From Citrobacter sp. Cu233 (GTDB lineage Bacteria > Pseudomonadota > Gammaproteobacteria > Enterobacterales > Enterobacteriaceae): a stretch of 64,000 bases of DNA. The stretch lies in NCBI RefSeq assembly GCF_030332225.1, contig NZ_JAOWIF010000041.1, positions 1 to 64,000 on the forward strand, written 5' to 3'. Under the pieces are notes generated by a model. That model worked only from the letters and a program-made list of their open reading frames with translations. It did not search any database and was not told the origin of the DNA. This document shows, in pieces, positions 38,499 to 54,695 of the stretch; the stretch's first letter is position 1; every line of letters starts with the position of its first letter. The translations under genes and the position numbers were made by a program.

Positions 38499-38659
38499 TG
38501 TTGTAAATTATCATCTTTTTTGGTGGTGGTGAAAAAATGCTCACTCATAAATTAATGATTGAAATCATGGTGATACAAATGATACATGGGTGATAGTCAC
38601 ACTAATAAACATTATTTTTTACATTTACTGACAATGTGCCATTGCGTTTTTTAGACTTG

Positions 38660-38668
38660 TGATATAAT
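38660..38668 (+). promoter_or_regulatory. Extended -10 promoter of the exopolysaccharide operon
   Basis: TGATATAAT is an extended -10 (TGn plus TATAAT) about 57 bases before the first start codon. The -35 region is poor (TTGCGT at 38642-38647 with only 15 bases spacing), which suggests dependence on an activator bound upstream. Confidence 0.5.
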
Positions 38669-38724
38669 TAGCAACATGAAAAGAGAAAAAAACAATTAAA
38701 TATCAATAAATAATGGGCTGAGAT

Positions 38725-40140
38725 ATGCTTAAAAATTCGCTAAAGATTAGCAGTCAAGGATATCCAGTCTTTTTGAAACTGGTCGATTTTATTGTAATTA
38801 ATATTACGTTAATTTTTAGCGCCCATCTGTTAGATATGGTGCCATTTAAGACCATTGTCATTCTGAGTATCCTCTTCTCAGTGTTTTTCTTACTGCTTGC
38901 TGAATACACAAAAATGTACCAGCAGAAGATAAAAACCATCGGCATACGCAACCAAAAACGGCTGCTTTTTTGTACACTGTTGGCGATATCGTTCAACGAA
39001 GTGATCAGCATGACGGTGGCCGAACCGGAGTCACTTGGATACCTGACAAGCCTGACACCGTCTTTTTTATCTCCTATTGTTTATTGGTATTTTATTCCTT
39101 TACCTTTTCTTTATTTTATTCGTTTTTTCATTTTTAAATATTCAACGAAAAAAAGCATTCGTGTGGCGATTATTGGTCTTACCGACAACGGTGTGGCAGC
39201 TGAAAAAGCATTGATAGCCGAATACTCCAATATCAAATTAGATTTGGCTTTTTATGACGAACGCGCTTTGTCCCGCTGTGGTGATATCGTGGATAAGATA
39301 AAAAGTCCTTTTCGTGGCCCTGTCATTAATCTGGTTGAAGAGGCCAAACAAGGGAATATCGACGAGATCTATATCGCATTACCGATGGTGGCATTACATC
39401 GTATTCGTCACTTTTTGGCCATGATGTCAGATACCACGGTAGATACCTATATTGTTCCTGATTTTTATACCTACAGTAACAATATGTCCAAGCTGCGCTC
39501 GATCCACAATCTGCAAACCATTGGCATCTTTAGCTCACCGTTTGAAGGGGCCGGTTCATTTATTAAACGTGCTGAAGACCTGATTCTCGGTAGCATCATT
39601 ATGGTGATGATCTCCTCACTGATGTTAGCGATTGCTATTGGTATTAAACTTACCTCACGTGGCCCGGTGTTTTTCAAACAAGATCGATACGGCCTGAGTG
39701 GACAAAAAATTAAGGTATGGAAGTTTCGCTCGATGCGAGTTATGGAGAATTCCGATACGGTTATCCAGGCCACCAAGAATGATCCACGTGTGACAAAATT
39801 TGGTAGTTTCTTGCGACGCACCTCTCTTGATGAACTCCCGCAATTCATTAATGTATTGCAGGGAAGTATGTCTATTGTCGGTCCCAGACCTCATGCGGTT
39901 ACGCACAATGAACAGTACCGCAAACAGGTCGAAAACTACATGATCCGCCATAAAGTTAAGCCGGGGATCACCGGGCTTGCGCAGATTAACGGTTTCCGTG
40001 GCGAAATCGATGCACTTTATAAGATGGAAAAGCGCGTTCAGTATGATATTGAATATATTCAAAACTGGTCGCTATGGCTGGATATAAAAATTATTATTAA
40101 AACTATTTTCAAAGGATTTGTCGGTAAGAATGCATACTAA
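38725..40140 (+). CDS. WcaJ/WbaP-type undecaprenyl-phosphate sugar phosphotransferase
   Basis: A 471-residue membrane enzyme that starts the repeat unit by moving a hexose-1-phosphate (usually glucose) from UDP-sugar to undecaprenyl phosphate. N-terminal membrane helices (about 15-125) are followed by a Rossmann-like CoA-binding-type middle domain (about 145-260) and the bacterial sugar-transferase domain (about 275-471) with helix LILGSIIMVMISSLMLAIAI and the conserved KVWKFRSM, DELPQFINVLQG and SIVGPRPH motifs. It is the first of eleven packed genes. WcaJ is the closest type I recall; the sugar is inferred. Confidence 0.93.
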   Translation: MLKNSLKISSQGYPVFLKLVDFIVINITLIFSAHLLDMVPFKTIVILSILFSVFFLLLAEYTKMYQQKIKTIGIRNQKRLLFCTLLAISFNEVISMTVAEPESLGYLTSLTPSFLSPIVYWYFIPLPFLYFIRFFIFKYSTKKSIRVAIIGLTDNGVAAEKALIAEYSNIKLDLAFYDERALSRCGDIVDKIKSPFRGPVINLVEEAKQGNIDEIYIALPMVALHRIRHFLAMMSDTTVDTYIVPDFYTYSNNMSKLRSIHNLQTIGIFSSPFEGAGSFIKRAEDLILGSIIMVMISSLMLAIAIGIKLTSRGPVFFKQDRYGLSGQKIKVWKFRSMRVMENSDTVIQATKNDPRVTKFGSFLRRTSLDELPQFINVLQGSMSIVGPRPHAVTHNEQYRKQVENYMIRHKVKPGITGLAQINGFRGEIDALYKMEKRVQYDIEYIQNWSLWLDIKIIIKTIFKGFVGKNAY

Positions 40141-41416
40141 ATTAATAGTTATTACCGGAATCGTGATATCGCAGTCCGCATGGGCTGATCTCACACCGAA
40201 ATCACACATTGGCTTTGCGGGGATCGACTTCCAGGGCAAAGTTGCTGTGGATTACGGTTATGATGATAACGTGACTTATCAACCCCATAACAGCGATGCG
40301 ATAGGTTCAGCTTTCCAGAGCGCGGCACCTGTGTTTAGTATGATCGGTGAGCGCGGTCAGGATAAGTATTTGTTAATGTATTCAGGAGATTATCGTAACT
40401 ACTCAAGCGATTCTGCCGATAACTATAACGACCATTTTTTCCGTTTTAACGGTGCCTGGCGTTATGGGCAAATGCACGGCTTAACCTTGAATCTGGAAGA
40501 TTCAATTGGGCATGAATCTCGCGGCCGCGATATCACAGAGGGCTTTTTGCCGAACCAGTTCCGCCAGTATGGAGTTAACTCTCCGCTGACGAATAATTTT
40601 ATCAACAGTGAATTGCGCTATAGCTATGGCGCACCAGATGGACGCGGCAAAGCGGAACTGGCACTGTTATATAAAAAACTGACGTTCGGGAATACCTCGG
40701 ATGTGCAGGATACCAGCCCGGATTTTTACAATTACATTCAGCAGCAGGAATGGCATGAAAATAGTCTGGTTGCTGAAGTTTTTGACCAATACACATCGAG
40801 AACGCGCTTTCGCTATAGTTTTATTACTAATCAGCGTCACTATGATAACAACTCAGAAAAAGACAGTAATGAATACTATTTGCTTTACGGTCTGAAATCG
40901 CAGTTGACGGGGAAAACCAACGTCGACATGAATATTTCATGGCTGTACAAAACATTTGAAAATGCCCCAAACTCGAATGATTTTAATGGTCTAAACTGGG
41001 ATATAAAGGGGGAGTGGAAGCCGTTAAATCAGTCAGTCTTCACTGCCCATTCTGCTCAAAGTATTAAAGACCCCTCGGAAGTTGGGGGGTATATTTTAGT
41101 GACTGAATATGGGCTTTCTTACCAGCATTTCTGGCTGGGTAATCGTTTTTCTACTTTGCTGGACTACTCATACACCACGGAAGACTATAAAAAACAGAAC
41201 AAGGATCGACATGATAAAAATGGTGTATTTAGCGTAACCATGAGCTATGACTACACGCCGTCTGTCAATTTTGAGATTAAATATCAATTAGATACCCTGA
41301 ATTCGAATAAGGATACTGATTCGTTTTATATCGGTCCCAACGACAATCAGGAAGTCATTAGAACGTTGGGTTATGATAATTCTATGATTATGCTTAAAGC
41401 TAAGGTTCAGATCTAA
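40130..41416 (+). CDS. Outer-membrane beta-barrel protein of the exopolysaccharide locus
   Basis: A 428-residue exported protein with a signal peptide at 1-19 (MHTKLIVITGIVISQSAWA) followed by alternating polar/apolar strands rich in Tyr, Asp, Asn and Ser, ending in a hydrophobic strand (MIMLKAKVQI). That pattern is of a large integral outer-membrane barrel of the kind annotated as exopolysaccharide beta-barrel protein. The ATG at 40130 is used because it gives the signal peptide; it overlaps the gene before by 11 bases. It is encoded directly upstream of a short OPX lipoprotein, so I infer that it forms the outer-membrane pore. Confidence 0.8.
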   Translation: MHTKLIVITGIVISQSAWADLTPKSHIGFAGIDFQGKVAVDYGYDDNVTYQPHNSDAIGSAFQSAAPVFSMIGERGQDKYLLMYSGDYRNYSSDSADNYNDHFFRFNGAWRYGQMHGLTLNLEDSIGHESRGRDITEGFLPNQFRQYGVNSPLTNNFINSELRYSYGAPDGRGKAELALLYKKLTFGNTSDVQDTSPDFYNYIQQQEWHENSLVAEVFDQYTSRTRFRYSFITNQRHYDNNSEKDSNEYYLLYGLKSQLTGKTNVDMNISWLYKTFENAPNSNDFNGLNWDIKGEWKPLNQSVFTAHSAQSIKDPSEVGGYILVTEYGLSYQHFWLGNRFSTLLDYSYTTEDYKKQNKDRHDKNGVFSVTMSYDYTPSVNFEIKYQLDTLNSNKDTDSFYIGPNDNQEVIRTLGYDNSMIMLKAKVQI

Positions 41417-41417
41417 A

Positions 41418-41975
41418 ATGAAAATAATAGAACTGTGCGCGTTTTTGCTATTCAGTATCCTGTTGGTCGGATGCACAACGTCCAGGCCACCATTAATGGA
41501 CGATCCTGCTGCGGTGGCAGAGGATTACCGAATTGGGGCGGGGGATACTGTCAATATCGTTGTTTACGGGGAACCCGAGATGACGATGAAATTTATTGTG
41601 GATAAGAGTGGAACAATAAACTTCCCTTATATCGGCGTGCTGGGTTTAAAAGATAAAACACCAGAACAGGTGAATATTGAATTAACTCAACGCTTGCGCA
41701 ATGGGTATATGGTTAATCCCATGGTGACAGTGAGTATTGCCGAGTTCCGTAAATTCTACGTGTCAGGGGAAGTGAAAAGCCCGAATGGATTCGCCTGGGA
41801 GCCGGGACTTACCGTAGAGAAAGCGATTGCTCAGGCGGGTGGATTTACTGACCGTGCAGATCGCAAAGATATCAACATTCGCCTCTCCGGTAGCAATCAG
41901 CTACTTGAGAATGTTGATTTAACGCACTCTGTTCGTCCTGGGGATGTCGTGATTATTGGCATGGGGTTCTTCTAA
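41418..41975 (+). CDS. Short Wza-like polysaccharide export (OPX) lipoprotein
   Basis: A 185-residue lipoprotein with lipobox LLVGC (lipidated Cys19). The Poly_export domain (about 33-110, YRIGAGDTVNIVVYGEPEM) is followed by one SLBB domain (about 112-180, FYVSGEVKSPNGFAWEPG). E. coli Wza has about 380 residues with further SLBB domains and a C-terminal amphipathic helix that makes the outer-membrane pore; both are missing here. It therefore cannot cross the outer membrane as Wza does and probably relies on the barrel protein encoded just upstream. One base separates the genes. Confidence 0.92.
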   Translation: MKIIELCAFLLFSILLVGCTTSRPPLMDDPAAVAEDYRIGAGDTVNIVVYGEPEMTMKFIVDKSGTINFPYIGVLGLKDKTPEQVNIELTQRLRNGYMVNPMVTVSIAEFRKFYVSGEVKSPNGFAWEPGLTVEKAIAQAGGFTDRADRKDINIRLSGSNQLLENVDLTHSVRPGDVVIIGMGFF

Positions 41976-41977
41976 CG

Positions 41978-44095
41978 ATGAAACTATCTATAGTGGAAAA
42001 CGGCAAGCAACGAGAAAACTCCGTCGATTTCTCCCGCTTTGCCAAAGAACTGAAAAAGAACGCCTGGAAAATCGCGCTGGCCGGTATTATTGCCGGGGTT
42101 GTCGCATATCCATTAATCAGCATGATGTCATCCAGGTATGTTTCGACTGCCACGGTGTTGATTAAGGCTCAGGCTGATAATGTGTCGCCCTTTCCCCAGG
42201 TTGATGGTTTTGATTCAACGCGTAGTGGTTACTACGAAACACAGTATGCATTGATGCAGTCTCGCATTATCCTCGAGCAGGCGGTCCGCGATCTGAAGCT
42301 GGATGAAAACCCGGATTTTACCGGGGTGAAGCCCGGCTCTGGCAGTGAAGATCAGCAGCTGAGGGTTGATCAGGCGCTGAAAACATTGTCGAAAGACCTG
42401 AAGGTCATCGGTATCCGTACCACTAATCTGGCCTCTATTTCTTATGAATCGTCCTCGCCTCAACTTTCAGCTGAGATAGCCAATGGCGTCGCTCAGGCTT
42501 TTATCAACTACACGGTAGAACAAAAGCGTCTGAACGCAGAGCAGGCTCGCAATCTCAACTTTGAAAAAATGGAAGAGATTCAGAAATCGATAGCGAAACA
42601 AAAAGAGGAAATGGATAGCTACCTGAAAAACTCTGGGCTGCTGACCTTCCGTGGTATTGATGGTTTTGAAACAGAGCAGTTAAGCATTGTGACCAACCGT
42701 CTTGCCGATGCGACCCAACGGCGTGTCGCCGCGGAGTCTGTTTACAATGAAGTCAATAGCCGAGGGAAATCTTCAGGCGATATCATTTCTCTGCCATCAG
42801 TTTCTGACCATGCGCAGATTCAGGATTTACGCATTGCGCTGATCCAGGCGCAGCGTACGTTGTCGGAACTGCGCAAAGTGTATGGGCCTAAAAGTGCCAA
42901 TATTTTAAAAGCAGAAGCCGATGTGCAATCAATCCAAAATCAAACGGGTCGGGTACTGGGTGAGCTAAAACTTGGCTTACGTCAGCAGTATTTGGCTGCG
43001 CTGGCCGACGAAAAGAATTACCAGCAGCAGGTTGCTGAGCAAAAAGAGATCTTCCAGAAGATGGCATCAAAACGGGATGCCTATAACAGCCAAAAATTGG
43101 CGTTAGATAAAATGGAAGATCTGTATAAAACGCTTTATCAGCGGACTCAGGAATTGTCGCTGTCCGGGGTTAATGCGGATGCGGTGCTGTATGATCCAGC
43201 CGTTCCTCCGTTAAAGCCGTCTAAGCCGAATAAATCGCTGCTGCTCGTGATGGTGGTGATGCTGGTTGTGGTATTCAGCATCATGTATTTCATCGTCAAA
43301 GCGGCAATGGATAATTCAATAAGCTCCCTGAGCCGTCTGAAGAAACGTCTCAATGTCGAGCCATTGGGCGAAATTCGTCGATTTACCGGTACTTCGGGAC
43401 GTGCACAGGTGCGGGATATGATACTGAAGAACCCGCTGAATGCCGATATCATCCACGGTATTCGCACCCGAATTATGCTGGATAACCGGCCGCTGCAGAC
43501 GGTCGCTATTGCTTCGGCGGAGCAGGGGGAAGGGCGCTCCCTGTTGGCGAATCTGTTGGCCAGCTCATTCAGCTTTGATCAGAAAACGTTGCTTATTGAT
43601 GCAGATTTCTTCAATACCAACGGCCTGTCTTCTGAACTGGCATCGGCGACTTCTGCTGGTGTGGCGGAGCTGTTGCGGGGTGAGGCTCCGCTTGAAAAGG
43701 CACGGGTTAAGATCGCTGAAAATCTTGATTTTATCCCCCACGGTAAGACGACCATTTCCTCTTTACTGATGCTGTCGTCAGAGCACGTTGAACCCGTGAT
43801 GCGCGAACTGAAGTCGCAGTATCAACGCATTATTATTGACGTTGCTGCGGTCAATCAAAGTCAGGATATCCAACTGATCAAACGCGCTGTTGATGGGGTT
43901 ATCTTTATCGTGAAAGCCGGGACCGGTTCTGCGGAGAATATCGCCAGCGCACTGGATAAGATTGAGGATAATCAGGGCGTGGTGATTGGCGCCGTGTTGA
44001 ATGCGGTCGAGGAAAAAAACCTTGAAACGCAGGAAGGGTTGCGCTCATTGAACTTCAATACTGACCAACTGATGACTACGCCAGGTCGTGTATGA
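41978..44095 (+). CDS. Wzc-like polysaccharide co-polymerase with degenerate BY-kinase domain
   Basis: A 705-residue inner-membrane protein with Wzz-type membrane helices near 31-50 and 416-436, a long periplasmic part with coiled coils (about 185-240 and 290-400) and a cytoplasmic BY-kinase-like domain (about 470-690). The Walker A motif reads EQGEGRSLLANLLA with Arg520 where the catalytic Lys is expected; Walker A' LLIDADF (538-544) is kept. The C-terminus (NTDQLMTTPGRV) has no Tyr cluster, and the locus has no Wzb-type phosphatase. It probably controls chain length without a phosphorylation cycle. It overlaps the flippase gene as ATGA. Confidence 0.93.
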   Translation: MKLSIVENGKQRENSVDFSRFAKELKKNAWKIALAGIIAGVVAYPLISMMSSRYVSTATVLIKAQADNVSPFPQVDGFDSTRSGYYETQYALMQSRIILEQAVRDLKLDENPDFTGVKPGSGSEDQQLRVDQALKTLSKDLKVIGIRTTNLASISYESSSPQLSAEIANGVAQAFINYTVEQKRLNAEQARNLNFEKMEEIQKSIAKQKEEMDSYLKNSGLLTFRGIDGFETEQLSIVTNRLADATQRRVAAESVYNEVNSRGKSSGDIISLPSVSDHAQIQDLRIALIQAQRTLSELRKVYGPKSANILKAEADVQSIQNQTGRVLGELKLGLRQQYLAALADEKNYQQQVAEQKEIFQKMASKRDAYNSQKLALDKMEDLYKTLYQRTQELSLSGVNADAVLYDPAVPPLKPSKPNKSLLLVMVVMLVVVFSIMYFIVKAAMDNSISSLSRLKKRLNVEPLGEIRRFTGTSGRAQVRDMILKNPLNADIIHGIRTRIMLDNRPLQTVAIASAEQGEGRSLLANLLASSFSFDQKTLLIDADFFNTNGLSSELASATSAGVAELLRGEAPLEKARVKIAENLDFIPHGKTTISSLLMLSSEHVEPVMRELKSQYQRIIIDVAAVNQSQDIQLIKRAVDGVIFIVKAGTGSAENIASALDKIEDNQGVVIGAVLNAVEEKNLETQEGLRSLNFNTDQLMTTPGRV

Positions 44096-45303
44096 GCTTA
44101 CTGAAGAGCGCTTCTACGATAGCCAGTTCATCAGTCGTTTCGCAGCTGATTGGTGCGCTGTCTATCTGGTTGATCTCACATAAGTACGATATGGCAGAGG
44201 TTGGGCTGTATGCGCTCAATTACAGTATCGCGGTGGTGGGGGCACAGGTATGTACCTTTGCCTCCCAGCTTTTGATTCCCAAACAGCAGGATGACGAGCT
44301 GGCGCAAAATGTGGTGTTCTGTTTGCTGCAAAGCGCGCTCATTGCATTACCGTATGCCGTCCTGACCGCGTGGTTGTTTCACCAGAACATACTGTTTCTC
44401 TATTTGCTGACGCTTTCAACGGCGTGGGCGTTAATATCGGAAAACTTATCGCTGCGGACAGCCAACTTTTATTTTCTGATTTTTCAGCGTATTTCGGTCT
44501 CTGTGGTGGTGGTGCTCTCGGTACTGCTCACGCACCAGGTACAGACATTTTACTGGTCGTGGGCCTGCGCCATGATACTGCTGACCACCAGCTGTATTTT
44601 ACATTCGTTTGATATTCGCTCGGTGACGTCGCAGCATTTGCGTCCGGCAAGTAATTTGCGATTTTTTAAACAGAATATTCATCACATCACTAAAGTCGGT
44701 AGTGCTGAGGTGCTGGCAATGGCGAGCAGTAACTTGCCTATTATGCTGATTAACTTCTGGTTTTCGGCGCTGACGGCGGGGTATTTTTCCGTTGTAAGCC
44801 GGTTCTGTCTGGCGCCGGTAGTGATTATCGGCAACGCGGTACGCAATACCATTTTTTCTAAATGGTCCATCGACTTCAGAAATAACACCTTCAATTATCA
44901 GGAGTATACGAAGGTACGTATGCTGCTGTTAGTGCTGGGGGGGGGCTGTACCTTAGGCGTCTTTATTTTCTATCCCATTGTGATGCGGCTGGGTTTTAGC
45001 GAAGACTGGATTAACTCCATTGAGACGTCGCGCTACATGTTGCCCTATTTGTTCCCGGCACTGGCGATAAGTCCTTTAACGGTGATTGAGCTTATTTTTG
45101 GCTCGCACCGCTATTTTCTGCGTATCCAACTTGAACAGTTGGCGATTGTGCTACTGGCGTTTGTGGTCGTTCCCTATTTTTACCATGATTATGCGGCGTC
45201 AGTAATATTGTTCTCTTCACTGACATTTATTCGCTATGCGTTCATTTACCTGAAAATGAACAAGCGGGCCAATCTCCTGAAAAACAAGCCGGTGATGCCA
45301 TGA
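44092..45303 (+). CDS. Wzx-type lipid-linked repeat-unit flippase
   Basis: A 403-residue very hydrophobic protein with about 12 membrane segments of the polysaccharide-transporter (MOP/RfbX) type, opening with TIASSSVVSQLIGALSIWL. It should move the undecaprenyl-linked repeat unit across the inner membrane. Start and stop overlap the genes on both sides as ATGA, so translation is coupled. Substrate specificity cannot be read from the sequence. Confidence 0.88.
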   Translation: MSLLKSASTIASSSVVSQLIGALSIWLISHKYDMAEVGLYALNYSIAVVGAQVCTFASQLLIPKQQDDELAQNVVFCLLQSALIALPYAVLTAWLFHQNILFLYLLTLSTAWALISENLSLRTANFYFLIFQRISVSVVVVLSVLLTHQVQTFYWSWACAMILLTTSCILHSFDIRSVTSQHLRPASNLRFFKQNIHHITKVGSAEVLAMASSNLPIMLINFWFSALTAGYFSVVSRFCLAPVVIIGNAVRNTIFSKWSIDFRNNTFNYQEYTKVRMLLLVLGGGCTLGVFIFYPIVMRLGFSEDWINSIETSRYMLPYLFPALAISPLTVIELIFGSHRYFLRIQLEQLAIVLLAFVVVPYFYHDYAASVILFSSLTFIRYAFIYLKMNKRANLLKNKPVMP

Positions 45304-46685
45304 CACTGAATACCGGAAATTATTTACAGGTCTACACATTTATAACGCTGATCCTGTGTGGTCTGGTGCAGTATTTTACCGGCCTGCAATCCGTGTTGTG
45401 GCTCCCGTTTTTCCTGACATTACTGATGGTGGGATTACTGGTGATGCAGACGCGAGACGGGGCGCTACGTCTGGATGCACAGGAAACCATTATCCTTGCG
45501 CTGTATTTTTCCTTTCTGGTACTGGCGGGAACATCGACCCTGATTCAGGGCGGGGTAACCGTTGCAATTGTGGCCTTCAAAAACGAAATCGCGTTATCGT
45601 TGGTGATGGTGTGTTTGCTGTTGGGTTTTTGCCGGGAATCGCAGATATATCGAGCGACACGCTATCTGTACTGGGTGTTCTACGCGCAAATCCCGGTGAT
45701 GATTTATCAGGTTTTGCTGGTTGTTCCTCAGCGTGTGGCTGTGCGCGGGGAAGATGAAAAATGGGACTCCGTGGTAGGGACATTCGGCGGAGACCCAATG
45801 GGTGGCGGCAATACGGCGGCGATGGGGTTATTTTGCCTGTTAATTATGTTGCTGAAACTCTCTGAATATAAGCACGGGCTTACGACGTTTAAATCCGCAG
45901 CGCTGCATATCATCCTTGGAATAGGGTTATGCATCATTGGTGAGGTTAAGTTTGTCATCCTGCTGTCACCGATATTTCTGGCATGGGTGTGGATATCGCC
46001 GAGCTATGTTAAAGATGTCAGTAAGGTAAATCTGAAGACGTTATTTGTCATTGTGGCAGGAATGCTGGTGCTCATCGGCCTGTCGATTATGATACTGGCC
46101 TGGTACTACGCTTCCGCTTTTGGCAGCGATCCGACGAAAGGCTCATTAAGCATTTTTATTGATTCATTGAGCTATATCTTTGATCCGAACTACATCATGT
46201 CGACCGGAGAGTTGGGGCGTTTCACAACGTTTCTGTTCTGGTTAAAAAATAACGATCTATGGGGACTGTCGGGCACATTATTTGGCTATGGGCTTAATGC
46301 CACAAACAGTGGTAGTACGGTCTCCCCTGGATTTTTGAACATTATCTATAACCTGATTTTAGACTCGACGGCTCTGAGTATGCTGCTGTGGGAAGTTGGC
46401 ATTATTGGCACGCTGCTGTTTATTGGCTTGTTTGTTTATGTTCTGAAAGTATGCCAGCCAAAACCAGTATTGATGCTTGAGCAGTTGGATAAACAGGATC
46501 TGCAGTTACTGAGCTTTGCGCCAGCATTTAATGCTTTCGCTATCAGTTGTTTAATCAGCTTGCCTTACAGCCAGATATTGATGATTACGCCGATGTTACA
46601 GTTCCTGTTCTATTTATCGCTGGGGGCGAGCTTAGTGATTCGTCGAACCGTACTTCGCAGTGCAGGGGGATGGTATGGACAATAA
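45300..46685 (+). CDS. Wzy-type polysaccharide polymerase
   Basis: A 461-residue membrane protein with about ten to twelve hydrophobic segments and one large outer loop (about 305-350, with many Gly, Asn and Ser), the usual Wzy/O-antigen ligase form. It lacks strong sequence motifs, as is normal for Wzy. Placed directly after the flippase and before the glycosyltransferases, it is the only polymerase candidate in the locus. The stop lies inside the next gene. Confidence 0.82.
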   Translation: MTLNTGNYLQVYTFITLILCGLVQYFTGLQSVLWLPFFLTLLMVGLLVMQTRDGALRLDAQETIILALYFSFLVLAGTSTLIQGGVTVAIVAFKNEIALSLVMVCLLLGFCRESQIYRATRYLYWVFYAQIPVMIYQVLLVVPQRVAVRGEDEKWDSVVGTFGGDPMGGGNTAAMGLFCLLIMLLKLSEYKHGLTTFKSAALHIILGIGLCIIGEVKFVILLSPIFLAWVWISPSYVKDVSKVNLKTLFVIVAGMLVLIGLSIMILAWYYASAFGSDPTKGSLSIFIDSLSYIFDPNYIMSTGELGRFTTFLFWLKNNDLWGLSGTLFGYGLNATNSGSTVSPGFLNIIYNLILDSTALSMLLWEVGIIGTLLFIGLFVYVLKVCQPKPVLMLEQLDKQDLQLLSFAPAFNAFAISCLISLPYSQILMITPMLQFLFYLSLGASLVIRRTVLRSAGGWYGQ

Positions 46686-47664
46686 GCCATTTATTTCAGT
46701 GAGTATTAAGACGCTCAACGAATCTAAAGGTATTGAGAAAACGATCGACAGCATTCGGCGTCAGTTGGTCGGGTATCCGCATAAAATTATTGTGGCTGAC
46801 AGTCTGTCGACTGATAACACCCAGCAGTTGGCAGTCAATAAAGGCGTCACGGTAGTGTCACTCACCGATCCGGGCGATCGCTGTTGTGGGGTGGGCCATC
46901 AGTTGGGTTATCTGTACAGCGAAGGGGAATATTTATTACTGATGGATGGAGATATGGATCTGGAAGATGGCTTCATTGACCAGGCTGTTGCTTTTTTGCA
47001 GGCGGAACCGGACTATGCCGGGGTGGCCGGTACTGTCGAAATGGATGATGCCGTTAACTATGAATTTAAGTCTCGTAAGCAGCGGATCAATAAAATCTAT
47101 CCTCTTGGCGATAGCGATCATCTGGGGGGCGGCGGACTGTATCGTCGGTCGGCAATTGAAAAAATTGGTTATCTGACCAACCGAAATTTGCACGCTTATG
47201 AAGAGGCTGAGCTGGGGCTGCGTTTAATCGAAGCGGGCTATAAACTGCGGCGTCTGGATATTCCTTACTTCAGCCATACGTCACATACGCTGCCGACGTT
47301 TAAGATGCTGGCGCGCCGCTGGACCAGCGGTTATTACCAGGCTCCAGGTGAGCTTTTGCGTTGTAGTTGGGGGAAACCCTGGTTTTCCCAGTCATTTAAC
47401 ATCGTGAAGAATGAGGCGGTATTTGCGCTATACCTTATTCTCTTATTTGTTGCGCTGCTCACCTTTAATATCAATGTGTTTGCCGTTGCGCTTTTACCAT
47501 TACTGGCATTTGCCTTGTTGAAGATTGTGCAAAATCGCTCGTTAAGCGATGGGTTGCAAAGCGTTATTAATTTAATCGTACGCTCAGCGGGGCTGATCAA
47601 AGGTATTTTTTATCCGGTACGCGATCCGCTGACTCCGCCCAACAGTAAAATCATTCATGAATAA
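46675..47664 (+). CDS. GT2-family glycosyltransferase
   Basis: A 329-residue GT-A glycosyltransferase. The N-terminal UDP-sugar fold begins ISVSIKTLNESKGIEKTID; the metal-binding acidic motif is LLMDGDMDLEDG, and GGGGLYRRSAIE plus EEAELGLRL (acceptor/catalytic Glu) follow. Hydrophobic segments near the C-terminus anchor it at the membrane. The ATG at 46675 follows AGGGGG and overlaps the polymerase gene by 11 bases. Confidence 0.9.
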   Translation: MDNKPFISVSIKTLNESKGIEKTIDSIRRQLVGYPHKIIVADSLSTDNTQQLAVNKGVTVVSLTDPGDRCCGVGHQLGYLYSEGEYLLLMDGDMDLEDGFIDQAVAFLQAEPDYAGVAGTVEMDDAVNYEFKSRKQRINKIYPLGDSDHLGGGGLYRRSAIEKIGYLTNRNLHAYEEAELGLRLIEAGYKLRRLDIPYFSHTSHTLPTFKMLARRWTSGYYQAPGELLRCSWGKPWFSQSFNIVKNEAVFALYLILLFVALLTFNINVFAVALLPLLAFALLKIVQNRSLSDGLQSVINLIVRSAGLIKGIFYPVRDPLTPPNSKIIHE

Positions 47665-47678
47665 CCGGGACAAGCGCC

Positions 47679-48890
47679 ATGAAAGTATTATTAGTTAACA
47701 AGTTTTTTTTCATTAAAGGCGGCGCGGAAACGGTTTATTTTCAAGAACGCGACATGCTGAAACAGGCTGGTGTTCAGGTCATTGATTTTTCCATGCAGCA
47801 TGAGAAAAATTTCCCCTCTGATTATGCTGATTATTTCGTCAGCAATGTTGATTACCATAAAGAGAGTAATCTGTTGGGGGGCATCAAAACTGCGGTTAAC
47901 TTTATTCATAACACCCAGGCCTGCAAAAAAATGCTGGCGCTTTTACAAAAAGAACGCCCTGATATCGTTCACTTTCATAATATTTACCATCAGTTGACGC
48001 CAGCGTTAATTAAAGTGGCGCGTAATTTTGGCTGCAAAACGGTGCTGACGGCGCACGACTATAAGATTGTCTGTCCTGCATACTCCATGTTACGTGATGG
48101 GAAGGTGTGTGATGCCTGTATCACCGGTACCGTTTTCAATGCCTTCCGCTATCGTTGTCAGGAAGGCTCTGCCTCTAAAAGCTTGCTGCTCTCGTTAGAA
48201 GCGACCTGGCAATACATTGCCCAAAATTATCAGGCTCTGGATGTGATTGTTTCACCCAGCCTCTTTCTACGCGGCGTGTTACTCCGAACGTTGCCGAAAT
48301 CGCGAATCGATGTGATCGTCAATGGTGTTGATGATAGCCAGCCCATCGATGAGGTCGTCGATGACGGTTATATACTGTACTTCGGCCGCCTGAGCCGTGA
48401 AAAGGGGGTGGCAACGTTGCTGGCCGCTCATCAGAAAATGCGTAACCCGGCTCCACTGAAAATAGTGGGGCACGGTCCGTTGCATGACGAGTTAGTGGCG
48501 AAATACCCGGAAGCGGAGTTTCTGGGTTATGTACAACAAGGTGATGCTCTCAATACGCTCATTAAGCATGCCCGAGTGGTGATCCTCCCCTCTGAATGTT
48601 ATGAAAACTGCTCAATGGCGGTGCTAGAGGCGATGTCTTTCGCGAAACCGGTGATCGGGGCGCGTATTGGCGGGATCCCCGAACAAATACGCGACGGTAT
48701 TGAAGGGATTTTATTTGAGCCGGGTAATGCGCAGGAACTGGCGAAGGCGATGGATACTCTGGTTGATGACCCGGATAAAGCACGCGTCATGGGCTTACGG
48801 GGTCGTGCGCGCCTGAGTGAAAAATATGCGCTTAGCAAACATATGGATACCTTACAGGCGCTATATAAAGAACTTCTGAGCAGGCCATAG
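47679..48890 (+). CDS. GT4-family glycosyltransferase (first)
   Basis: A 403-residue GT-B retaining glycosyltransferase. N-terminal loop FFIKGGAETVYFQ (about 9-21) and the C-terminal nucleotide-sugar site with the EX7E motif (E-NCSMAVL-E) and GARIGGIPE are typical. It adds one sugar to the lipid-linked unit on the cytoplasmic side. It lies 14 bases after the GT2 gene and one base before the next GT4. Confidence 0.92.
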   Translation: MKVLLVNKFFFIKGGAETVYFQERDMLKQAGVQVIDFSMQHEKNFPSDYADYFVSNVDYHKESNLLGGIKTAVNFIHNTQACKKMLALLQKERPDIVHFHNIYHQLTPALIKVARNFGCKTVLTAHDYKIVCPAYSMLRDGKVCDACITGTVFNAFRYRCQEGSASKSLLLSLEATWQYIAQNYQALDVIVSPSLFLRGVLLRTLPKSRIDVIVNGVDDSQPIDEVVDDGYILYFGRLSREKGVATLLAAHQKMRNPAPLKIVGHGPLHDELVAKYPEAEFLGYVQQGDALNTLIKHARVVILPSECYENCSMAVLEAMSFAKPVIGARIGGIPEQIRDGIEGILFEPGNAQELAKAMDTLVDDPDKARVMGLRGRARLSEKYALSKHMDTLQALYKELLSRP

Positions 48891-48891
48891 A

Positions 48892-50004
48892 ATGAGTAAA
48901 AAAATAACGGTTTTTGGTACCCGCGGTATTCCGGACGTATTGGGCGGTGTGGAAACCCACTGCCAGAATCTTTATCCGGCGATTAAACAACAGTTTGACG
49001 TTGATATTTGTGTTATCGCCCGCTCGCCGTATGTTAGCTACAAACGATCTTCTTATAAGAAAGTTGAGACCTATGCGCTGTGGGCACCCAAAAAACGGTC
49101 ACTGGAAGCGATTGTGCATTCCGTTTTAGCGGCGTTTAGAACCTGTGTCGACCGTTCTGATATTGTGCATGTCCATGCTATAGGGCCGGGTTTGGTGATC
49201 CCATTATTACGCGTGTTAGGTAAGAAGGTGGTTTTTACCCACCACGGGCCTGATTACGATCGTCAAAAATGGGGATTTGTCGCCAAAAAAATATTGCTGC
49301 TGGGCGAACGCTGGGCGGTGAGATATGCCAATGAGGTGATAGTGATTTCTGAGGTCATTAACCAACTGATTCAGAAAAAACATGCTCGCTATGATGCGCA
49401 TTTGATTTTCAACGGCGTCAATAAGCCCCGTCCGTTGTCAGATCAAACCATTCATGCCACGCTTTCCCGCTTTGGACTCGAAGCGAAAAACTATTTCGTG
49501 GTGGTCGGACGGTTTGTGGAAGAAAAGGGGATGCATGATGCCATCTCCGCGTACAAACAAAGTGGTTTGCAACAGCCGCTAGTGCTCATTGGTGATGCAG
49601 ATCACCCAACAGAATACAGTATTCGACTCAAGCAACTTGCCGCTGATACCCCTGGCGTGGTGATGACCGGATTTTTAAGGGGAGATGAACTTCAGGCAGT
49701 GTTTTCGCAGGCCCGGCTGTTTGTTATGCCTTCTTACCATGAAGGACTACCGATTGCGCTTCTGGAGGCGATGTCGTATTCCCTCCCGGCGGTGGTGAGC
49801 GACATCCCCGCAAATTTGGAGGTGCAGTTGCCGTCTGAGGCCTATTTTCGGGTCGGCTCATTGTCCAGTCTTGCTGAGAAATTAACCGCCTGGGCCAGCG
49901 CAAATAGCGTGGACTATCGTGTATATTTGCAAAATTATGATTGGCAGGAAATTGCCAGAAAAACAGTCAATGTCTATCACTCAATTGATAAAGATATAGG
50001 TTAA
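48892..50004 (+). CDS. GT4-family glycosyltransferase (second)
   Basis: A 370-residue GT-B enzyme beginning KKITVFGTRGIPDVLGGVET, a form seen in many exopolysaccharide GT4 enzymes that use UDP-hexoses. The EX7E motif lies in YHEGLPIALLEAMSY and is followed by AVVSDIPANLE. With the initiating transferase, the GT2 and the other GT4 this gives at least four sugars per repeat unit if each acts once (inference). Confidence 0.92.
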   Translation: MSKKITVFGTRGIPDVLGGVETHCQNLYPAIKQQFDVDICVIARSPYVSYKRSSYKKVETYALWAPKKRSLEAIVHSVLAAFRTCVDRSDIVHVHAIGPGLVIPLLRVLGKKVVFTHHGPDYDRQKWGFVAKKILLLGERWAVRYANEVIVISEVINQLIQKKHARYDAHLIFNGVNKPRPLSDQTIHATLSRFGLEAKNYFVVVGRFVEEKGMHDAISAYKQSGLQQPLVLIGDADHPTEYSIRLKQLAADTPGVVMTGFLRGDELQAVFSQARLFVMPSYHEGLPIALLEAMSYSLPAVVSDIPANLEVQLPSEAYFRVGSLSSLAEKLTAWASANSVDYRVYLQNYDWQEIARKTVNVYHSIDKDIG

Positions 50005-50006
50005 TT

Positions 50007-50414
50007 TTGACCAGTCCTCAGAATCGCCCCCCCGTCATTGAACGATTTTATGCTCAGCTTGATGTGCATATATCGGAGGGACTGACTCCGGAACAAAAAG
50101 AGGGGATCGAGAAAGCGATCGTCGCCAGCACTCTGGCATCAAGACATCGGATCGATATTCGCAGAAGTTTTCCATTTTTCGGTAAACGCTTTTATCTGGT
50201 TTTTTTATTCGGCAGAGACTTACGTCAGCGGCATCGTCAGGAGTCGACCTTATCGACCATGTTGCTCACTTTTTTGCTGCTGCTAGGCACGCTGTTTGTC
50301 ACCTGCTGCGTATTACTGACGCTATACATGATCAAATCCGCATTGGGTATTGATGTATTCCAACATTTTCACGTTGGTATTTGGGACTGGTGGTTAAGCC
50401 TGAAAGACCGCTAG
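50007..50414 (+). CDS. Small membrane protein of unknown function (TTG start)
   Basis: A 135-residue protein with a charged cytoplasmic-like N-terminal part (1-80, opening PPVIERFYAQLDVH), one or two membrane helices (about 85-112) and a short aromatic tail (GIWDWWLSLKDR). No Met or GTG codon is available before the folded part, so TTG at 50007, seven bases after AGG, is the only start. I do not recognise a family. It lies within the operon, 2 bases after the GT4 gene, so a role in assembly or export of the polymer is likely. Confidence 0.72.
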   Translation: MTSPQNRPPVIERFYAQLDVHISEGLTPEQKEGIEKAIVASTLASRHRIDIRRSFPFFGKRFYLVFLFGRDLRQRHRQESTLSTMLLTFLLLLGTLFVTCCVLLTLYMIKSALGIDVFQHFHVGIWDWWLSLKDR

Positions 50415-50445
50415 TGTTAACAAACCTGTGGAAGGCGTCACTGCG

Positions 50446-51837
50446 ATGAAGTGTAAATGGTTTTCTGCGCTGTTGTGTCTGTTCTGTCCGCTGACGGTAT
50501 TGGCCGCATTAACGACCGTAACCCCTAAAGCATTGACGGGCCCACTGACAAACCCAGGTATTGGGGTAGCCAGTTTTCATCAGGGATATGGTGAAACGCT
50601 TGGACTGGCGGATTATCCCGACACAGGCTTTGAGTATGAGCGCTTTTACTGGCGTGACCTTGAGCCTGTCGAAGGCCAGTACAATTTTGCACTGGTTGAT
50701 GACGCCTTCAGGTATGCTGCCGCGCATCGACCGGCGATGAACGTCGGACTGCGGTTTATGGCGCTTGCTGAGCCGGAAACCGGTTCACAAATTCCCGACT
50801 GGTTGATTAAAAAAGGCGTAAAGGGAACCTGGACGCCTGACAATAAAACCTTTATCCCTGATTTAGACGATCCCCTATTTATTGAATATAGCCAGCGCCT
50901 GCTGAACGCGATGGGTAAACGCTATGATGGTAACGAGAACCTGGCTTTCGTGGATATCGGCATGGTGGGGTCGTGGGGAGAGTGGCATAACAGCAATTTC
51001 CCGATGCTGAAGCCATTACTGGAGCGCTACACCACGGCGCAGTTGGACCGTTATGTGACGATGCATTTCACGGCTTTCCCCCGTACGCCAAAAATCATGT
51101 TGATGAGTGGTGGGCAAAGCCTGGCGAATGCGGTCGCGCGCGGGGCGGGCTGGCGTGCGGACTGCCTGGGCGATCTCCGCGTGTTTTCTGATTCATGGAA
51201 TCATATGGCGGATGATTATCCTCAACGGCTGCAGGCCGCACAGAAAAGCTCTTCAGGATTTAATGATGCCTGGAAACATGCGCCAGTGAGCTTTGAGATC
51301 TGCTCGTACATGCAGGACTGGAAAAATACGTTTCACTATACGCGAGAGGAAGTGCAGGGGATTTTTGACTGGGCGGTGAAGCAACATACCAGTACGATTA
51401 ACCTGAAATCGAGAACCGTGCCCCGTGAGTATCGTCCGATTGTCGACGAGGCACTGACAAAACTGGGCTATCGGTTTCGCTTAGCCTCCCTGAGCCACGA
51501 GTCAGTCTGGGAAGGGGGACAAGAACTCACCCTGACAAGCACCTGGTATAATGAGGGGAACGCGCCGATTTACCTTCCCTACACGCTGGCATTTCGTCTG
51601 GTTGATGAGGCCAATAAGGTGGTGGCACAAGGGAATGTCCCTGAAGATATACGTCACTGGCTGCCCGGAAAACACCCACTGAGTTACGGGATGCCGATGC
51701 CCGGGACGCTGCCGAAAGGGAAATATGCTATTGAAGCGGCGATTGTGGATAAATCCGGTGCGGCAAGAATTAACTTTGCCAATGAAGGGAAGCTGAGCAA
51801 CGGTTGGTATCGCGTGTCTGCGGTAACGGTGAAATAG
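50446..51837 (+). CDS. Secreted DUF4832-type protein (glycosidase-like)
   Basis: A 463-residue exported protein with a signal peptide at 1-20 (ending TVLA). The N-terminal two thirds look like a (beta/alpha)8 glycosidase barrel: RFYWRDLEPVEGQYNF, FVDIGMVGSWGEWHN (acidic residues in catalytic-like places). The C-terminal third is a beta-sandwich, matching the DUF4874/DUF4832 layout. Activity is not established; a polymer-trimming hydrolase or lyase acting in the periplasm is the natural inference. The ATG at 50446 is chosen for the signal peptide. It is the last gene of the plus-strand operon. Confidence 0.8.
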   Translation: MKCKWFSALLCLFCPLTVLAALTTVTPKALTGPLTNPGIGVASFHQGYGETLGLADYPDTGFEYERFYWRDLEPVEGQYNFALVDDAFRYAAAHRPAMNVGLRFMALAEPETGSQIPDWLIKKGVKGTWTPDNKTFIPDLDDPLFIEYSQRLLNAMGKRYDGNENLAFVDIGMVGSWGEWHNSNFPMLKPLLERYTTAQLDRYVTMHFTAFPRTPKIMLMSGGQSLANAVARGAGWRADCLGDLRVFSDSWNHMADDYPQRLQAAQKSSSGFNDAWKHAPVSFEICSYMQDWKNTFHYTREEVQGIFDWAVKQHTSTINLKSRTVPREYRPIVDEALTKLGYRFRLASLSHESVWEGGQELTLTSTWYNEGNAPIYLPYTLAFRLVDEANKVVAQGNVPEDIRHWLPGKHPLSYGMPMPGTLPKGKYAIEAAIVDKSGAARINFANEGKLSNGWYRVSAVTVK

Positions 51838-51848
51838 CCTGCCATAGT

Positions 51849-51873
51849 AAGGAGCCTGGCAATCAGGCTCCTT
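51849..51873. terminator. Terminator hairpin between the exopolysaccharide operon and galE
   Basis: AAGGAGCCTG and CAGGCTCCTT form a perfect 10-bp stem with the loop GCAAT. It lies 11-12 bases from the stop of each of two convergent genes, so it should end both transcripts. Confidence 0.85.
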
Positions 51874-51884
51874 ATCGTTAAAAA

Positions 51885-52901
51885 TTAAACGTGATAGCCA
51901 TCTGGATTGTTTTTTTGCCAGTTCCAGGTATCGCGTATCATTTCATCCAGATTGTAGATGGCCTGCCATCCCAGCTCTTTTCGTGCTAACGACGGGTCGG
52001 ACCAACATTCGGCAATATCCCCGGGTCTTCTGGCCACAATCTTATAATTAATTCGGGTTTGCGCCGCTTTCTCGAAGGCTGCGATCAGGTTAAGTACGGA
52101 ATATCCGATACCGGTACCGAGATTGATGACTTTGTATGCCGCACCTTTTTCCTGGCAATCCAGTGCTGCTAAATGGCCAGTTGCCAGATCCATCACATGG
52201 ATGTAATCACGCACACCGGTGCCGTCAGGGGTTGGATAGTCATTTCCATAGACCGACACGCTTTCCAGCTTGCCAATCGCCACCTGAGAAATATACGGTA
52301 CCAGATTGTTGGGGATACCATTCGGATCTTCACCAATCCTGCCCGATGGATGTGCGCCGACTGGGTTAAAGTAGCGCAGGCAGGTTATGCGGAAATCGGG
52401 CTGTGCGCGGGAAAAGTCTGCCAGAATTTGCTCGACCATGAATTTTGATGTGCCATACGGATTGGTGGTACCACCGGTTGGCGATTGTTCACTTAATGGA
52501 ACGCTTTCCGGGTTGCCATATACCGTGGCGGATGAGCTGAAAATAAAGTGCTTAACTCCCGCAGCTAGCATCTCACGCAGTAAAACCAGCGTGCCGGTGA
52601 CATTATTGTCATAGTAGGCAAGCGGTTCTTTTATTGATTCTGAAACTGATTTTAGTCCAGCAAAATGAATAACATCGGTGATGTTATGGTTAGAGAAAAT
52701 AGTTTTCAGAACATCGTTGTTCAGCACATCAGCAATATAAACGATGGGCGCTTTGCCAGTCAGTTCCGCAACCCTGTCCAGGGATGTTTGCGAGGCGTTG
52801 GAGAGATTATCGATGACCACAACATCATCACCTCTTTCCAGAAGCGTCAGCACGGTATGTGAACCAATATAACCAGCACCACCAGTGACCAGAATTTCCA
52901 T
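51885..52901 (-). CDS. galE: UDP-glucose 4-epimerase GalE
   Basis: A 338-residue SDR enzyme that interconverts UDP-glucose and UDP-galactose. The NAD motif GGAGYIGSH is at 7-15, the catalytic Ser lies in SSSATVYG and the catalytic YxxxK in YGTSKFMVEQI. Length and sequence are near E. coli GalE. As it sits in the exopolysaccharide locus and not in a gal operon, it may be a second copy supplying UDP-galactose for the polymer, so galactose is a likely constituent (inference). Confidence 0.95.
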   Translation of the reverse strand: MEILVTGGAGYIGSHTVLTLLERGDDVVVIDNLSNASQTSLDRVAELTGKAPIVYIADVLNNDVLKTIFSNHNITDVIHFAGLKSVSESIKEPLAYYDNNVTGTLVLLREMLAAGVKHFIFSSSATVYGNPESVPLSEQSPTGGTTNPYGTSKFMVEQILADFSRAQPDFRITCLRYFNPVGAHPSGRIGEDPNGIPNNLVPYISQVAIGKLESVSVYGNDYPTPDGTGVRDYIHVMDLATGHLAALDCQEKGAAYKVINLGTGIGYSVLNLIAAFEKAAQTRINYKIVARRPGDIAECWSDPSLARKELGWQAIYNLDEMIRDTWNWQKNNPDGYHV

Positions 52902-52967
52902 ACAGTCTCCAGATATTTTTTTTGCAAACTATCATTGATTCATCAATGCCACCGTCTTAAATAAACG

Positions 52968-53906
52968 TTATTGGTGGCGTCGGGTAAGGTAAAAATTCCG
53001 GTATTTCACCCTGCATTTATAAGATATTTTTTTAAGTATAGAAAACAGGCTGAATTTGCTTATCTTACTATCATACACGATATAGTTATCGGTGAAGTTC
53101 AGCGTGTGGACGCCCTCGCTTTGGTTGATGCTGGCATTGATCTGCGCAATCAAACGCTCATCAAAGCTGGATGCGTTAAGCGTGATTAACTCTTTGATAT
53201 AAACTGACTTTCCGTACGTTTCTGGCGTGCATTCCTGGGTAAGGAAATAGAGTTTATTATCAACGCAGTGTGGTGCGCCAGCGCCCCGGGGGTGTTGATT
53301 CGACAGGTTAAGTGTGGGCTCTATTTTTTGCCATGGCCCGGTGACATCACTGGCAGTATGGATAACTAACTCATCTTCCATCGTGGTGGATAAAAGATAA
53401 AGATTTTCATGTAACGAGACGACGACGTTATCGGTGAGCGCCAGGTCAGGTACTAATACTTTTACCTGTCTCCAGCGCGTAGGGAAATCTATCGACTGGA
53501 ATAAGATAACCTCTTTCCTTTCTGAAGACTCCGGGATCATGAAAAGCTGATCGTTGCTGTAAAATAAAAAAGGAAATGATAAATGGCATTTCAGGTTATC
53601 AAAACCGTCGAGTTTCACATCCTCAAGCTCAACCAGGTTAGCATCAAGGATACGGCAGCGCAGGATACCTTGCGAATTACGAAAGCTTAGTGCTTCATAA
53701 AAAATATAAACTTTATTGTCTTTTTCAATAATGAAAGGATCGGCCTGAAAGGTATATTTCTTTTTGAGCTGTTGGGCTCGGGTGCGGTTCAGAATTTCCA
53801 GCGTGTTCGTGGGAAAGGTATGCGAACCCTTATTTTTTAGGATCATAGTATCCCATGATTCATGAAAAAATAACATATTAATCAGTCTGTTATTTTTCGT
53901 TCGCAT
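52968..53906 (-). CDS. Putative sugar-transfer protein with five-bladed propeller-like domain
   Basis: A 312-residue cytosolic protein without signal peptide. Segments FQADPFIIEKDNKVYIFYEAL, HLSFPFLFYSNDQLFMIPESS and HPRGAGAPHCVDNKLYFLTQE are repeated blades of the propeller seen in the N-terminal domain of plant GINT1-type transferases and in some bacterial polysaccharide loci. The catalytic role is unknown. A good AAGGAG ribosome site lies 9 bases before the ATG. It lies 66 bases upstream of galE in the same direction, probably one transcript. Confidence 0.7.
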   Translation of the reverse strand: MRTKNNRLINMLFFHESWDTMILKNKGSHTFPTNTLEILNRTRAQQLKKKYTFQADPFIIEKDNKVYIFYEALSFRNSQGILRCRILDANLVELEDVKLDGFDNLKCHLSFPFLFYSNDQLFMIPESSERKEVILFQSIDFPTRWRQVKVLVPDLALTDNVVVSLHENLYLLSTTMEDELVIHTASDVTGPWQKIEPTLNLSNQHPRGAGAPHCVDNKLYFLTQECTPETYGKSVYIKELITLNASSFDERLIAQINASINQSEGVHTLNFTDNYIVYDSKISKFSLFSILKKISYKCRVKYRNFYLTRRHQ

Positions 53907-54059: not shown

Positions 54060-54695
54060 TTACTCGAAATGGACGTGTGGATTATCGGCCAGCGAAACGT
54101 AAGTTTTGCTGTTCTTATCCAGAGTACGAATTTCTCCGCTTTCGATGTCGTAAACCCAGCCGTGCAGACGAATCGCGTTGTTACGCAGGCCAACAGCCAC
54201 GCAAGGGTGCGTTTTAATGTTGTTCAACTGGGCAATAACGTTTTCTTCCACCATGGCATTTACTTTATCGATTTCGTTAGCCCAGGTTTTCTTTTCAACC
54301 ACGGCTTTCGCAGCATCGGCATAGTGCAACCAGTGGGCGACAGCAGGCATCGGATCCAGGGGTTGGCTTTCTGCGATGGCTTTCATCGCGCCACAGTTGG
54401 AGTGGCCACAGATAACGATATCAGTCACACCTAAAGCAACGACCGCGTACTCAATGGTGGCAGACACGCCGCCAGGCTCTGGGCCAAAAGACGGGACAAT
54501 GTTACCGGCGTTACGGATAACGAAAAGCTGTCCTGGCTCTTGCTGCGTCACTAACTCAGGCACCAGACGGCTGTCAGAACAGGAGATGAAAAGCGCCTTA
54601 GGATTCTGGCTGGATGCCAGGCTGCGGAAGAGTTCCTTACGTTGAGGGAAAATCTCTTTTTGGAAGTTGAGGAAGCCCTCAATGATATGTTGCAT
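54060..54695 (-). CDS. cynT: Beta-class carbonic anhydrase (CynT type)
   Basis: A 211-residue enzyme that interconverts CO2 and bicarbonate. Zinc ligands are Cys39, His98 and Cys101, with the Asp41-Arg43 pair of CSDSRLV. It is much nearer to E. coli CynT (same residue numbers, PELVTQxEPG, [15 protein letters not shown]) than to Can. The cyanate genes cynS and cynX are not beside it, so its job is probably bicarbonate supply and not cyanate detoxification. Confidence 0.93.

Follow-up and report, generated by a model that had tools for sequence, protein, structure and literature searches.

In the current analysis we have examined a stretch of 64,000 nucleotides from Citrobacter sp. Cu233 (contig NZ_JAOWIF010000041.1, positions 1 to 64,000; referred to here as the window), in particular an operon of eleven plus-strand genes at 38725-51837 that belong to a Wzx/Wzy pathway. 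With high confidence we assign this operon to the exopolysaccharide (EPS) pathways of the type represented by EPS-III of Vibrio vulnificus. It is a well-conserved member of a kind of locus that has been named already and is chemically undescribed. The most interesting points are a family-wide pseudokinase and a transposon bounded by insertion sequence (IS) 1 that carries the operon in Escherichia coli.

Gene content and organisation of the operon

The eleven open reading frames (ORFs) follow one another closely, neighbours overlapping by 4-26 bases or being separated by gaps of 1-14 bases. Their assignments, from Pfam and NCBIfam family matches, are listed below together with the genes that follow on the minus strand. 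The starts at 40118 (TTG), 46660 (GTG), 50007 (TTG) and 50428 (GTG) were set mechanically and the true ones may lie a few codons downstream.

38725..40140, plus strand: gene 1, phosphoglycosyltransferase (PGT) of WcaJ type, undecaprenyl phosphate (Und-P) glucose-1-phosphate transferase (TIGR03023, 488.3 bits against a cut-off of 410.75; PF02397)
40118..41416, plus strand: gene 2, outer-membrane beta-barrel of BBP2_2/EpsL type (PF10082, 6.8e-12); wherever a mapped locus has both, it adjoins the OPX gene
41418..41975, plus strand: gene 3, short OPX lipoprotein of class 3 make-up (Poly_export PF02563 and SLBB PF10531)
41978..44095, plus strand: gene 4, Wzc-like PCP-2a fused to a tyrosine pseudokinase (Wzz/GNVR and BcsQ-like ATPase domains)
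44092..45303, plus strand: gene 5, Wzx flippase (PF13440, 22.7 bits against a cut-off of 23; 8 hydrophobic segments in a simple scan)
45300..46685, plus strand: gene 6, probable Wzy polymerase (11 predicted hydrophobic segments; place in the operon)
46660..47664, plus strand: gene 7, GT2 glycosyltransferase (PF00535)
47679..48890, plus strand: gene 8, GT4 glycosyltransferase (PF13692, PF00534)
48892..50004, plus strand: gene 9, GT4 glycosyltransferase with a DUF1972-like N-terminus (PF00534, PF09314)
50007..50414, plus strand: gene 10, small membrane protein (one hydrophobic segment, residues 80-109)
50428..51837, plus strand: gene 11, secreted DUF4832 protein, glycoside-hydrolase-like (PF16116, 1e-15; Glyco_hydro_42 at its cut-off, 21 bits)
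51885..52901, minus strand: galE, UDP-glucose 4-epimerase, convergent with the operon (Epimerase family)
52968..53906, minus strand: GINT1_N propeller-type protein (PF24793, 8.4e-28)
54060..54695, minus strand: beta-carbonic anhydrase gene, beyond the propeller gene (family match)

Eight of the eleven genes have matches above their own Pfam cut-off and Wzx falls slightly under; Wzy and the small gene 10 protein gave no Pfam match even at E 10. The name Wzy for gene 6 is therefore a probable one, given from the hydrophobic segments and the position. An earlier reading of this DNA, made without database searches (the sequence-only reading), had proposed a single operon facing galE and a propeller gene, with the functions listed here for its PGT, barrel, OPX, Wzc-like, Wzx, Wzy, three glycosyltransferase, small and DUF4832 proteins. 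Both proposals are borne out, and the operon is of the Wzx/Wzy exopolysaccharide type. Cellulose and yjb identities, which that reading had set aside, appear disfavoured from the family matches taken alone.

Relationship to EPS-III of V. vulnificus and to cps2 of Klebsiella oxytoca

Three EPS loci have been described in V. vulnificus, among which EPS-III comprises VV1_2302-2312 (eleven genes by number), apparently as a single operon, with VV1_2302 a predicted phosphoglycosyltransferase (PMC8268162). Its fourth gene product, VV1_2305, is given in PMC12004946, following Cuthbertson et al., as a PCP-2 fused to a bacterial tyrosine (BY) pseudokinase. The Citrobacter operon is alike on these counts: eleven genes in a fixed order with the PGT first, and a fourth gene encoding a PCP-2a fused to a BY pseudokinase. 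Among the genomes searched, G602 has an eleven-gene locus (L127) on a contig of 3.27 Mb and a nine-gene brp-like locus (L142) on a contig of 1.74 Mb, where the barrel match occurs twice. L127 contains the same eleven genes as the window at 41-68% identity, and we infer from its layout (gene count and order) and by elimination that it is EPS-III of V. vulnificus. The two loci differ in that no galE and propeller pair is seen in L127, and EPS-III has another host and the regulators BrpR, NtrC/DctD and RpoN; PMC11077940 deals with EPS-II and EPS-III regulation only.

Annotations in the cps2 locus of K. oxytoca DSM 29614 agree with the eleven Citrobacter genes in both content and order (PMC6258164, Table 3), the comparison being one of annotations and not of sequences. 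The twelfth position of cps2 has an annotated WcaB acetyltransferase in place of the galE and propeller genes of Citrobacter. The rhamnose/glucuronate EPS of K. oxytoca was considered as the product of a cps2-type locus and rejected; the authors of PMC6258164 suggest cps1 for it.

The make-up that the sequence-only reading had called unusual is thus not unusual in the wider sense, since EPS-III and cps2 share it. The gene set has been named in print, and no description of the polymer of an EPS-III-type locus was found in the literature searched; the compositions of V. vulnificus EPS are stated in PMC9040800 not to have been elucidated. Neither the E. coli transposon nor the Citrobacter locus was found in print in that literature, which was mostly without subscription papers. 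A survey of capsule loci (PMC7305143) covered cps (galF-gnd/ugd) and kps loci and would therefore miss a locus of the EPS-III type, and the subject of PMC8117528 is colanic acid.

Comparison with Vibrio vps, cps and brp loci

The vpsL-M-N-O genes of V. cholerae, cps of V. parahaemolyticus and brp of V. vulnificus share with the Citrobacter operon the PGT, the beta-barrel, the short OPX and the Wzc head, and have an OPX/beta-barrel translocon (VpsN/VpsM). The first four genes being arranged as the head of such loci further weakens the notion of an unusual make-up, and raises the alternative that the operon is itself a rugose biofilm locus of the vps/cps/brp type (vps-II). We consider this highly improbable. 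The head PGT-barrel-OPX-PCP is found in seven of the eight loci with low-identity barrel matches (L136-L143; L137 has no PCP match), and 31-54% identity in the same order has been reported for the first four genes of cps and vps (PMC2987987). Kinship of the glycosyltransferases beyond the head is not nil, L138 having a GT2 match of 43% and L136, L138, L141 and L142 GT4 matches of 22-27%. Against this alternative, Wzx, Wzy and the small gene are unmatched in all of L136-L143, and the PCPs of such loci keep the kinase motifs and the tyrosine tail (six of the six scored), which the Citrobacter PCP does not. These low-identity barrel matches (23-27%) were accordingly rejected as the same locus; L136-L143 fit loci of the vps/cps/brp type, with other Wzx and Wzy proteins. 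A syp/scv-type identity was also rejected, the syp-like Vibrio locus of PMC8941931 being set apart by its description, which gives it 15 genes.

Comparison with colanic acid and group 1 capsule loci

The operon could also be viewed as an enterobacterial locus of the capsule or colanic acid kind (group 1/4) from which wzb and the C-terminus of Wza have disappeared by decay; its PGT belongs to the WcaJ family and its pathway is Wzx/Wzy. We regard this as extremely improbable. The same genome contains a separate Wzc with a GKT motif, DTPP and a tyrosine-rich tail, and just upstream of it (by eye) an ORF resembling a low-molecular-weight tyrosine phosphatase, so that the operon stands apart from colanic acid as the sequence-only reading had held. 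The relatives in Enterobacteriaceae and in Vibrionaceae have the barrel, the short OPX and the degenerate kinase, so nothing looks recently lost. The family matches likewise agree with the earlier statement that the operon has no wzb and no full-length wza.

The upstream region points the same way. The ops/JUMPStart core, which we take to be GGCGGTAGNNT, has no match with at most 1 mismatch in 38268-38724, in line with the absence noted earlier from the letters, and its 13 matches in the whole window are at chance level (mean 11.6). No RcsAB-box-like site was found in 38268-38724 at 3 mismatches. The arrangement wza-wzb-wzc with JUMPStart/ops upstream, by which group 1 capsule and colanic acid loci are recognised, is therefore absent. 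The region contains one probable promoter element:

38658..38668, plus strand: probable promoter -10 region, extended -10, TGTGATATAAT (consensus match; 56 bases before the first start codon)

Counting the window, 11 Citrobacter sequences have this element conserved, and 4 Buttiauxella loci have it in slightly altered form; the E. coli copy does not conserve it.

Pseudokinase domain of the Wzc-like protein

In the PCP of the window the Walker A lysine is replaced by arginine (GEGRS), Walker B is without DTPP and the last 25 residues contain no tyrosine; the features of an active tyrosine kinase of Wzc type (Walker A lysine, DTPP, tyrosine-rich tail) are thus all missing. The same was observed throughout the eleven-gene type: among 41 PCPs (32 from Enterobacteriaceae, with the window, plasmid and E. 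coli copies included, and 9 from Vibrionaceae; some near-identical) neither the Walker A lysine nor DTPP occurs in any, and the tail has no tyrosine in 39 and a single one in 2. These counts come from a kinase table of 53 mapped loci, from which L116, L131, L137 and L138 were omitted (no single PCP match longer than 600 residues) and in which the variant loci L133-L135 were counted apart; among the latter the Walker A lysine is present in L135 only and tail tyrosines in none. The vps/cps/brp-type PCPs scored have all kinase motifs intact and 3-4 tail tyrosines.

The loss of the kinase motifs fits the missing wzb, as a pseudokinase would need no Wzb, and suggests that the Wzc-like protein may act independently of phosphorylation. 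In the current PCP-2 model phosphorylation cycling of Wzc is held to be necessary, and phosphorylation-independent PCP-2 scaffolds have been proposed from EcpK/EpsV and HfsB/HfsA (PMC12004946). EpsV/EcpK of Myxococcus and HfsA/HfsB of Caulobacter likewise pair a PCP-2 with a BY pseudokinase, which in those systems is a protein of its own, whereas in the Citrobacter operon it is fused, as in VV1_2305 (PMC12004946). The sequence-only reading was silent on the pseudokinase, as it was on the carriage of relatives by transposons and plasmids described below.

Export proteins, DUF4832 protein and sugars

The OPX protein has 185 residues, a lipobox (LVGC) near its N-terminus (by eye) and no Wza_C match, and its gene adjoins that of the predicted barrel. 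A lipobox is present in the N-termini of the Enterobacteriaceae OPX proteins inspected and not in those of Vibrio. A short OPX devoid of the membrane-spanning Wza_C and encoded beside an outer-membrane beta-barrel is the arrangement of OPX/beta-barrel export, to which the operon would belong by its sequence. PMC9601211 and PMC9603273 describe such export, by a short OPX without the membrane-spanning part acting with an outer-membrane beta-barrel, and count VpsN/VpsM among the examples. Sequence searches of the PDB led from the PCP and OPX to relatives of Wzc, VpsO and Wza, and gave nothing for the DUF4832 protein or the barrel.

The DUF4832 protein appears to be a secreted, glycoside-hydrolase-like protein. 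All 40 aligned sequences, the window's among them, have Glu185 (within a GxWGEW motif) and Glu290. DUF4832 is reported as an accessory gene in Gram-positive Pel clusters (PMC7112168).

The only nucleotide-sugar gene with the operon is galE, and none further was found in the mapped core of the other fetched loci. A second galE-like gene, 55% identical to the one facing the operon, is present elsewhere in the genome. With no other such gene accompanying the operon, the repeat would be expected to consist of sugars already produced by both families, and a glucose-type PGT together with three glycosyltransferases most simply suggests a tetrasaccharide.

Distribution and conservation of gene order

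The Wzy gene (searches at E <= 1e-10) is present in all 17 genus genomes searched, with an open frame of 469-481 residues even where an internal stop was reported in the match. The operon is therefore standard in the genus, and the label accessory given to it earlier has to be withdrawn. Within the Enterobacteriaceae the gene was found in 30 of 392 genomes and 15 of 154 genera, the copies other than the window's own being 60-92% identical to it. In the family of Aliivibrio fischeri 29 of 197 genomes have it, 20 at 55-67% identity (in one of these, G461, in pieces and with a stop) and 9 at 47-49%, considered a variant. A sample of the class (n=369) gave it only in the window's own genome and, at 24-28% identity, in 4 others. 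Across the genus and these two families the relatives of Wzy are 55-99% identical, the 47-49% variant set apart. Serotype loci usually vary more in Wzy.

Comparison of gene set and gene order, as had been called for, gave the same eleven genes in the same order in another family as well, so that the operon arrangement is not due to chance; the operon is a discrete locus type. Among 29 fetched Enterobacteriaceae loci, which were picked by their Wzy match and so have Wzy by construction, 23 have all eleven genes in order. In the other six, Wzx is in two pieces (L113), the small gene is unmatched (L117; a counterpart is matched in most mapped loci of the eleven-gene type), the locus is cut by ends (L103, L116), several genes are lost (L115), or the order is changed and the stretch examined contains no PGT (L123). 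In the Vibrionaceae the barrel is matched along most of its length, at 38-53% identity, in 19 genomes, and seven of the nine loci fetched (L124-L132) have all eleven genes in order; the PCP is interrupted in L131, and L131 and L132 have no DUF4832 in the stretch examined. An A. fischeri locus (L019) has ten of the genes, with no DUF4832 match within the last 0.9 kb of the stretch. The variant loci L133-L135 (three of nine genomes with 30-33% barrel identity) have no GT2 match, with other ORFs in that place, and their DUF4832-like ORFs run on the opposite strand. In a FastTree tree built from five concatenated proteins of 44 loci and the window, the Enterobacteriaceae copies separate from those of the Vibrionaceae (support 1.000), so that no recent exchange between the two families is seen.

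The barrel protein of the window is 92-97% identical to those of named Citrobacter loci. The galE and propeller genes lie downstream of the operon in L095-L102, L104 and L115 and in the E. coli and Enterobacter copies L021-L023. After the DUF4832 gene, 15 of the 18 other fetched Enterobacteriaceae loci, among L105-L122, have a gene of serine-acetyltransferase (hexapeptide) type (by eye; L103 is cut), and cps2 of K. oxytoca is likewise annotated with an acetyltransferase after the DUF4832 position. The alternation of an acetyltransferase-like gene with galE and the propeller gene suggests a swappable decoration of the polymer. In the mapped loci the propeller protein is 58-77% identical, being less conserved than the neighbouring galE (75-90%).

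The setting of the operon between tctE and the carbonic anhydrase gene is as reported earlier, and no tRNA was found in the window. The border with tctE is variable, the distance being about 6 kb in two Citrobacter loci (L004, L011) and about 0.5-1.3 kb in the other loci showing tctE. The small RNA MicA (Rfam RF00078) is located at 2813-2884 on the minus strand.

IS1 composite transposon and plasmid copies

By megablast, 29 of 5426 E. coli genomes contain all or part of the operon. The initial list had 33, from which four were dropped with a match to only 44-65 bases of galE. The 29 are not independent, several being the same strain (ATCC 8739 at least three times). The same 8.3 kb alignment occurs in 28 of them (27 chromosomes and one plasmid), and the remaining one is a plasmid copy cut by IS26 (L150).

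In the ten chromosomal copies inspected (L021, L144-L149, L163-L165) the operon, galE and the propeller gene lie between two inverted IS1, the whole being 17,288 bp and the core 15,752 bp. Both IS1 are full length and identical in seven of the ten, and in these seven the core matches that of L144 at 99.98% identity or more and the block common to different sites stops exactly at the outer ends of the IS1. L163-L165 differ from L144 at 1-3 of 17,288 positions. The ten copies occupy about six places: cof/ybaE in ATCC 8739 (L021), a tRNA-Leu gene island (L144), a uvrA-ssb island (L146, L147, L165), pgpA/yajO (L149), the ykgJ side (L164), and a tRNA-Ser island and its derivatives (L163, with which L145 and L148 have one edge each in common, by eye). 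Two of the ten (L149, L163) are flanked by exact 9-bp duplications. The E. coli copy is thus an IS1 composite transposon by its full IS1 pair, its different sites and the duplications of these two copies. The other eight have no duplication and do not fit a simple insertion, which suggests later deletion or inversion. The Citrobacter copy is not of this form, as no IS1 match was found in the window.

The likely source of the transposon core is the lineage of L100, from an Enterobacteriaceae genome (G227), in which the core is 99.78% identical, with no IS1 in the stretch, and lies beside an ORF for a LacI-type repressor (by eye). An IncY plasmid copy of E. coli (L022), located near tetR(A), retains one intact IS1 together with an IS1 remnant of 95 bases that adjoins IS5. 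Four Enterobacter plasmids carry a Citrobacter-like copy, which in the three inspected comes with the carbonic anhydrase gene and a complete or partial PatB-like gene. The plasmid copies among L022, L023, L151 and L162 are on IncY (E. coli) and on IncFIB/IncFII, IncFIB and IncR (Enterobacter) replicons.

Weighing of the assignment and proposed pathway

A number of points weigh against the assignment to an EPS-III-type pathway. L127 was equated with EPS-III from layout and elimination and not from a named record. Wzy gave no Pfam match and Wzx missed its cut-off by a small margin. The DUF4832 match is absent after the small gene in L019, L131 and L132, so that this gene is not in every copy. 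No polymer has been isolated so far. Finally, deletion of VV1_2302 left biofilm unchanged under the conditions tested (PMC8268162); earlier mutants tie EPS-III to EPS production and biofilm (PMC4584020, PMC9040800).

That deletion of the first gene, in one V. vulnificus study, also speaks for the operon being intact in Citrobacter but silent or non-functional, a relic, as do the two fetched Enterobacteriaceae loci that are degraded or rearranged (L115, L123). Such a state is very improbable, as all eleven frames are open, Wzy is kept in every genome of the genus and the DUF4832 residues are invariant in all the sequences aligned.

We therefore retain the EPS-III-type assignment and propose the following pathway. 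Gene content, order, conservation, the lost kinase motifs and the transposon structure were computed, and the enzymatic steps, the sugars, the phosphorylation independence and the role of the hydrolase are taken from the families. The PGT would load glucose-1-phosphate onto undecaprenyl phosphate, on which the GT2 and the two GT4 enzymes would assemble a repeat of common sugars such as glucose, galactose (from galE) and perhaps GlcNAc. The repeat would be flipped by Wzx and polymerised by Wzy, and the Wzc-like protein would govern length and export without tyrosine phosphorylation. The chain may then exit through the periplasmic short OPX lipoprotein coupled to the outer-membrane beta-barrel, and the secreted DUF4832 protein would probably trim or process the polymer as a hydrolase.

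There is, in our estimate, an even chance that the full picture holds: a conserved, non-serotype exopolysaccharide of Enterobacteriaceae and Vibrionaceae, made by a phosphorylation-independent machine with a fused pseudokinase, whose whole pathway moves among E. coli sites and plasmids as an IS1 composite transposon. As it stands, the locus supplies the list of parts for a conserved enterobacterial polymer of which no description was found, and it shows an entire Wzx/Wzy export pathway spreading in E. coli on a compound transposon. A large family of Wzc-like proteins has lost the kinase motifs, and as one member is in the laboratory strain E. coli ATCC 8739, the phosphorylation-independent PCP-2 model can be put to the test in a host that is easy to work with.

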